Origin: Acidimicrobiales bacterium
Lineage (GTDB): Bacteria > Actinomycetota > Acidimicrobiia > Acidimicrobiales > SHLQ01
Direction: 5' to 3'
NCBI GenBank assembly: GCA_020628865.1
Contig: JAHDEJ010000040.1
Location: 1-41,917, forward strand
DNA: 41,917 bases
The translations under genes and the position numbers were made by a program. Each line of letters starts with the position of its first letter. Within the stretch, counting starts at the first letter, position 1. The notes beneath the pieces are model-generated. The model was given only the letters and a program-made list of their open reading frames with translations. It searched no databases and was not told the DNA's origin. This document shows, one piece after another, positions 31,617 through 32,387 of the stretch.

Positions 31617-32012
31617 ATGGGATTCTGGAAGCCACTCGGCGGCGGTCGTTCGAACGACGACATCTTCATCTGCGCAGCCGATGAGCCGATTGGCGGCCGC
31701 CCCCTGCGTTGTCTGCTGATCGACCTTCTCGCGGCAGCCGGCGTGCCGATGTCGATCTCCCAGTTGGTCGGCGAGCTGGAACGGTTGAACACCCCGCTGG
31801 CCGGTCGGCCGTCCAAGGCTGTGTCGGACGCGCTCCGCTGGGAGATTCGCAATGGCCGGGTCGAACGGGTGGGTCGTGGTCGCTACCGCTTCCTCGGCGC
31901 CCCGCCCACCACGCTCGCCCGGATCACCCGGCGCGCTCGGTCGGTGCGCCGCCACCTCGCCGAACGAAGCGCCCAACCATCCAGCGGGGACAGCATTCCC
32001 ACCGCGTCATAG
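31617..32012 (+). CDS. Small winged-helix-like protein, unknown
   Basis: A 131-aa protein. The middle (about residues 30-95) reads as a winged helix: LLIDLLAAAGVPMSISQLVGELERL, then SKAVSDALRWEIRNGRVERVGRGRYRFLG, resembling helix-turn-helix plus wing, as in chromatin- or promoter-binding proteins. The C-terminus is basic (RITRRARSVRRH). I do not recognise a family. A GACAAT hexamer lies 5 nt before the ATG. The last three codons and the TAG fall inside copy 1 of the 20-bp repeat (32001-32019), so the natural 3' end may have been replaced or extended when the repeat arrived. Confidence 0.7.
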   Translation: MGFWKPLGGGRSNDDIFICAADEPIGGRPLRCLLIDLLAAAGVPMSISQLVGELERLNTPLAGRPSKAVSDALRWEIRNGRVERVGRGRYRFLGAPPTTLARITRRARSVRRHLAERSAQPSSGDSIPTAS

Positions 32013-32075
32013 CGACAACGCTCTCGGACAGCACGCTCAGCCGAGGGCGAGGCGCCGGGGGCGATCGGCGAACGT

Positions 32076-32125
32076 CGACCGGCATTGAGGTGCAGACAGC
32101 CGACCTGCGTTGAGGTGCAGGCAAA
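32076..32125 (+). repeat. 25-bp tandem repeat, two copies
   Basis: Copies 32076-32100 and 32101-32125 match at 20 of 25 positions and share TTGAGGTGCAG. A degenerate third piece, GTCGATGTGCAAAC at 32151-32164, directly touches repeat copy 2 of the 20-bp family. Confidence 0.7.
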
Positions 32126-32203
32126 CGGGGCACGAGAACTCGGAGCGGGAGTCGATGTGCAAACCGCGTCATAGCGACAACTGGGATGGACCCGAGTGGG
32201 CGG

Positions 32204-32221
32204 GCTCCCGCAGGCGGGAGC
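32204..32221. other. Hairpin nested in the repeat cluster
   Basis: Arms GCTCCCGC and GCGGGAGC with an AG loop, or 7 bp with a four-base loop, in the loop of the larger inverted repeat. No T-run follows, so a terminator is not supported. Confidence 0.6.
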
Positions 32222-32387
32222 TTGCCTCGGCAACTGTCGCTATGACGCGGTTGGAGGAGTGCGACGCCGGCGCCATGTCGGAGGGCTCGGGTGGTTCGGG
32301 TTCCGCCGTTGTCGCTATGACGCGGTTTCGAGATTGTCCCGGCACGGCGGCGGGCAACCAGTCGGTTCACGACTCGGCGAATCGACA

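Follow-up and report, generated by a model that had tools for sequence, protein, structure and literature searches.

A dispersed inverted-repeat family linked to a small AbiEi-type winged-helix gene in the Acidimicrobiales

Four near-identical copies of a 20-bp sequence, two in each orientation, lie within about 330 bp at the 3' end of a small gene in an Acidimicrobiales bacterium, and the locus raises the question of what kind of element this cluster is and which protein it belongs with. A sequence-only reading of the window (the whole stretch of DNA analysed here, 41,917 nucleotides) had offered three possibilities: a REP/BIME-like dispersed element mobilised by a RAYT-type transposase, binding sites for a DNA-organising protein, or a structured RNA. 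The source genome, G000, is a 5.36-Mb draft, and the genomes with which it was compared are likewise drafts.

The repeat cluster of the window and its unit

As had been described from the sequence, the cluster comprises four copies, two forward and two reversed, of an asymmetric unit of about 20 bp, arranged in the order ++--, an arrangement for which the expectation from 100 shuffles is 0. The copies form two nested convergent pairs, copies 1 and 4 being the outer and copies 2 and 3 the inner pair, and the upstream gene does take its stop codon, a TAG at 32010-32012, from copy 1. The features of the locus are:

31617..32012, + strand: stand-alone winged-helix gene, 131 aa; AbiEi-type wHTH without catalytic domain; proposed repeat binder
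32000-32019, + strand: unit copy 1; 1 mismatch; includes the TAG codon that ends the 31617 gene; unchanged in G008
32162-32181, + strand: unit copy 2; exact; left-hand arm of the inner pair; unchanged in G008
32204-32221, no strand: small hairpin within the inner pair, GCTCCCG-CAGG-CGGGAGC; broken in G008
32233-32252, - strand: unit copy 3; differs at 2 bases, both at the 3' end; right-hand arm of the inner pair; unchanged in G008
32308-32327, - strand: unit copy 4; exact; outer-pair partner of copy 1; unchanged in G008

The sister genome G008, from an uncultured Acidimicrobiales bacterium, retains the cluster at the corresponding place, in a stretch of 6.8 kb with 91% identity. Across the cluster units 76 of 76 bases agree, whereas the spacers are ~92% identical (P = 0.002). 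The hairpin at 32204-32221 exists as claimed but is not conserved; since it is disrupted in G008 although all four units are intact there, it is probably incidental. A shufflon-like inversion was rejected, G008 being colinear across the cluster. Between copies 1 and 2, at 32076-32123, the window also contains two 23-bp direct repeats, CGACCGGCATTGAGGTGCAGACA, which are 87% alike and spaced by 25 bp.

The unit is 17-20 bp long and takes the order-wide form CCRYGTCnnAGCGACA, which in the window type of G000 reads AACCGCGTC[AG][TC]AGCGACAA; its most variable positions are the central two bases (AT, GT or AC). It is commonly paired, with 4-80 nt between two convergent copies, and stems form only between two units: within one unit there is no internal stem of at least 5 bp, just GTC-N5-GAC. 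A search of G000 with the 17-base core, in which up to 2 mismatched bases were tolerated, returned 16 copies, eight on each strand, against 0 for the reversed-pattern control. The 20-mer thus recurs in the genome, and the cluster is conserved in a relative. The edge of the family is sharp, as 15 copies have at most 1 mismatch outside the central two bases and one has 2, beyond which matches fall to chance level (12 extra matches at 3 mismatches, versus 18 in the control). The 16 copies occupy 11 places, namely the window cluster, convergent pairs at C35 and C44, and eight single copies; no obvious sequence is common to these places beyond the unit, and the dispersed copies are of the window type, not that of the other two G000 paralogs of the 31617 gene. 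One copy, at G000:C85:10315-10333 (L081 3816-3834), lies inside a gene resembling FAD-dependent oxidoreductases and is read in frame. In a pattern scan of named genomes, matches were at about the number expected by chance, apart from G008, which also carries the C44 pair and the copy at C76:113733. The C97 copy is absent from G008, where the corresponding gap has diverged and offers no clean empty site.

A winged-helix gene family that accompanies the repeat

The 31617 gene is under selection, as indicated by a dN/dS of 0.12 against its G008 orthologue. In the AlphaFold2 model of its 131-aa product, which has a core pLDDT of ~90-96, a winged-helix fold leads into a long helix, and the best structural matches are wHTH proteins, with Z up to 10.5 (Pex). 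Matches to AbiEi profiles are weak but recur in several family members (PF13338, best E 0.003; NF047376, best E 0.005), and the PADLOC AbiEi models match the family with a best E of 1e-5. A Pfam scan of the window protein itself gave nothing over the cut-off, a PDB search by sequence gave no credible match, and no homologs were found in viral contigs, phages or plasmids. The neighbouring genes in the window resemble BCP, PGPGW and Mrp-type ATPases, and no toxin gene, such as that for the DUF1814/AbiEii nucleotidyltransferase which adjoins AbiEi type IV antitoxin genes, was seen among them.

A search with the 131-aa product gave matches in four of 11 members of the genus (G000, G008, G006 and G009), and these are the members that carry the repeats. 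Each of the seven intact homologs found in G000, G006 and G009 is followed by a convergent unit pair, whose first arm lies ~150 to 225 nt downstream of the stop codon, and the orthologue in G008 is accompanied by the same cluster as in the window. Two nested pairs are present at the window locus, and a third unit copy at G009:C48. The AGCGACA half of the motif is invariant at these loci, and the variants of the remainder track the clade of the adjacent protein:

Window locus: AACCGCGTC
C44 and C112 paralogs: GCCCACGTC
G006:C22 and G009:C13: GCCCGYGT
G006:C48 and G009:C48: GCCCGCGTC

Across the order, a profile built from the seven proteins (alignment A2) detected homologs in 54 of the 397 genomes and 37 of the 203 genera. 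An inverted-repeat scan that made no use of the motif recovered pairs of the same unit directly downstream of homologs in G122, G146, G096, G142 and G226, which belong to families other than that of the window, and a motif-guided scan placed the unit upstream of the homolog in G278 and on both sides of it in G137. With these diverged loci included, the consensus of the unit is CCRYGTCNNAGCGACA. Beside 88 background genes, comparable repeats were found only next to RAYTs and in one G142 element of the wHTH-linked family. Six of the 397 genomes contain exact CCRYGTCNNAGCGACA three times or more (G000, 18; G142, 8; G146, 6; G009, 4; G006, 3; G096, 3). A homolog is encoded in every one of them (P = 5e-6), and the association also holds for the three outside the genus taken alone (P = 0.002). 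No recognisable pair accompanies the homolog at approximately three quarters of the 40 more distant loci, and the link between gene and repeat is thus firm in only part of the family. In G142, the wHTH gene at C2 ~143600-144400 (L270 3126-3872) adjoins a ParA-like ATPase gene; no such conserved partner was noticed at other loci.

Spread of the elements and competing explanations

Both duplication and loss of these elements were observed. G142 contains four scattered pairs with similar loops and flanks, the closest two being alike over ~60 bp on one side, and these look like REPIN-type copies. REPIN-like copying was seen in this genome alone, since eight of the 11 places in G000 hold single units and share nothing beyond the unit. 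In G361 a 612-bp stretch is 100% identical at two sites whose flanks are unrelated on both sides:

G361, C5 and C34 (L210 ~2308-2919; L211 ~2291-2902), gene-oriented: 612-bp unit

This stretch starts exactly at the hairpin GAATTCGGGTCGTAGCGACAA...TTGTCGCTGTGACCCGAATTC, contains the wHTH frame with no room for a second full gene alongside, and ends inside the wHTH stop codon, which is completed by the flank. For comparison, IS200/IS605 elements carry a Y1 transposase within the mobile unit. G361 also encodes further wHTH paralogs, several of which are followed by TGTCCGCTCACAGCGGACA palindromes. At the orthologue of the C44 locus in G008, 265 bp including the 5' half of the gene are gone and, ~400 bp further, exactly the 84-bp pair has been lost separately, which may be an ordinary hairpin deletion. 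Placement was classified with a simple home-made gene finder and reading by eye: among 13 classifiable dispersed places in five genomes, seven are in convergent gaps, six in tandem gaps and none in divergent gaps, with one more place intragenic. Against an assumed background of 25%, P is ~0.02 for either measure, the numbers being small. This is the placement pattern of REPs (Di Nocera 2013, PMC3733652) and is unlike that of promoter operators.

The explanation that we favour, with a probability of roughly 0.6, is that the repeats form a family much like REPINs but have a dedicated partner of another kind, a small winged-helix protein of AbiEi type, which would bind every unit. On this view the short dispersed elements make up a small family and the window cluster is its home array, each unit being occupied by one molecule of the 131-aa protein. 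We infer binding by the 31617 protein from the genetic linkage, from the motif variants that track the protein clades and from the habit of AbiEi-type winged helices of recognising asymmetric 23-bp repeats in inverted pairs. Pairs from the home array, and sometimes the gene with its pair, would be copied elsewhere and settle in convergent gaps and next to the 3' ends of genes. Since the protein has no nuclease that we could recognise, we assume that movement depends on an enzyme supplied in trans or, alternatively, on the replication of DNA across the hairpins. At gene ends the bound protein might conceivably act as a road-block or insulator. A further-reaching version is tentative, and we would sooner doubt it than rely on it: the non-catalytic AbiEi-type wHTH gene and its own inverted-pair sites may constitute a minimal mobile element, spreading both as gene plus hairpin (G361) and as gene-less REPIN-like pairs (G142 and G000), with the wHTH protein in the place of the RAYT.

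The suggestion of a REP/BIME-like dispersed element thus stands in its anatomy and position (inverted pairs, gene 3' ends and convergent gaps), features that speak for a classical REP or REPIN mobilised in trans by a RAYT, but its mobilisation by a RAYT finds no support. The search for a REP-associated transposase found four Y1_Tnp (RAYT-like) genes in G000, at C101:72374, C81:60890, C96:704 and C108:15214, yet each has its own distinct flanking palindromes (AGGTGCCTGGCACCT, GGGGTCAGACCCC, GGGGGCTGCCCCC and GGGGTCGCGTCTCAC) and the unit is absent near all four within the stretches read of this draft assembly, which leaves mobilisation by them unsupported; a fifth RAYT might lie in a gap of the assembly. 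RAYT-like genes are moreover present in all 11 genus members searched, at least one in each, but the unit occurs only in those with a wHTH homolog, and it lacks the internal stem. A classical RAYT-driven element is therefore improbable. The unit pairs might instead be RNA elements, acting as 3'-UTR hairpins or two-way terminators after the stop codons that they follow, with the wHTH protein coincidental or RNA-binding. Folding is very stable, with z of -6 to -8 in four of five pairs tested. However, most dispersed G000 copies are single, terminators have no need of a conserved 17-base sequence, and most of the 25 differences found between arms are at the central positions, which are free to vary, while a G-U pair survives in only 14 of the 25 on one strand and six on the other, numbers too small to suggest that pairing is selected for; each arm conforms to the motif more than to the arm opposite. 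An Rfam search found no family near threshold and one spurious miRNA match to the hairpin. A structured RNA could thus still apply to the paired copies, but as an account of the family we give it little credence.

Binding sites for a protein are the better half of the earlier guess, the likely binder being the product of the adjacent 31617 gene. Such sites could be ordinary transcription-factor operators of a small regulon, read by this protein or another, as would suit the wHTH fold, the autorepression practised by AbiEi relatives and the strict conservation of the units between the sister species. Against this, the sites are found at gene 3' ends or in convergent gaps, with none of 13 in a divergent promoter gap, lie mostly downstream of the wHTH gene instead of in its promoter and adjoin genes with no common function that we could see, and G142 duplicates whole pairs together with loop and flanks; we regard operators as unlikely. 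Sites for a chromosome-organising or partition protein of the MatP or ParB kind, encoded beside the main cluster, would likewise be near-identical, asymmetric and dispersed, and would fit a protein without a catalytic domain. Such a role is very hard to reconcile with the sporadic occurrence of the family across the order, with several paralogs that have separate site variants in one genome and with the duplication of gene and pairs, and it is the reading to which we attach the least weight. Likeness to attC, CRISPR or dif sites was rejected, as spacing and sequence do not fit the features of these elements as generally known.

Comparison with known systems

The pairing of a gene of this kind with its own inverted repeats, here seen in one order of actinobacteria, is apparently undescribed; no report of dispersed repeats partnered by a wHTH or AbiEi-like protein emerged from our literature search, which covered the subscription literature in part. 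The closest parallel is the REPIN-RAYT system (Bertels and Rainey 2011, PMC3116915), which shares inverted pairs of a short unit, a home cluster by the partner gene, a separate repeat variant for each partner gene, intergenic dispersed copies and occasional clean loss. It differs in that the partner here is an AbiEi-type winged helix of ~130 aa and not a Y1 tyrosine transposase, the unit is non-palindromic, the copy number is low relative to REPINs, and in G361 the gene has been duplicated along with the hairpin. Among partners of REP-like repeats it is the RAYTs that are well described; a nuclease-less DNA-binding partner, if true, would be another route to the upkeep and spread of repeats, might account for other orphan repeat families and would provide a directly testable pair of protein and site.

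The GTAG- and CGTC-tagged REPs (Di Nocera 2013, PMC3733652) resemble the present family in occupying tandem and convergent gene gaps and in overlapping stop codons, and the CGTC-REPs were reported to be without a transposase or any other dedicated partner. These repeats have an internal stem of 8-9 bp (CGTC) or 5-13 bp (GTAG) with the tag at one end. Membership was rejected, as the CGTC of our unit is internal, is followed by NNAGCGACA and forms no such stem.

The AbiEi type IV antitoxins, AbiEi and Rv2827c (PMC7319586), share the wHTH fold, a weak profile similarity and asymmetric sites of ~20 bp in inverted pairs, in one case two pairs: AbiEi monomers bind two 23-bp inverted repeats, and Rv2827c binds two pairs. 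This provides a precedent for the arrangement that we infer here, in which each monomer would occupy one asymmetric unit of a convergent pair. The window protein differs in having no C-terminal antitoxin domain and no toxin gene seen beside its own, and its sites are mostly 3' of the gene and dispersed, whereas those of the antitoxins are in the promoter. If our reading is right, it would represent an AbiEi-type winged helix acting outside toxin-antitoxin operons.
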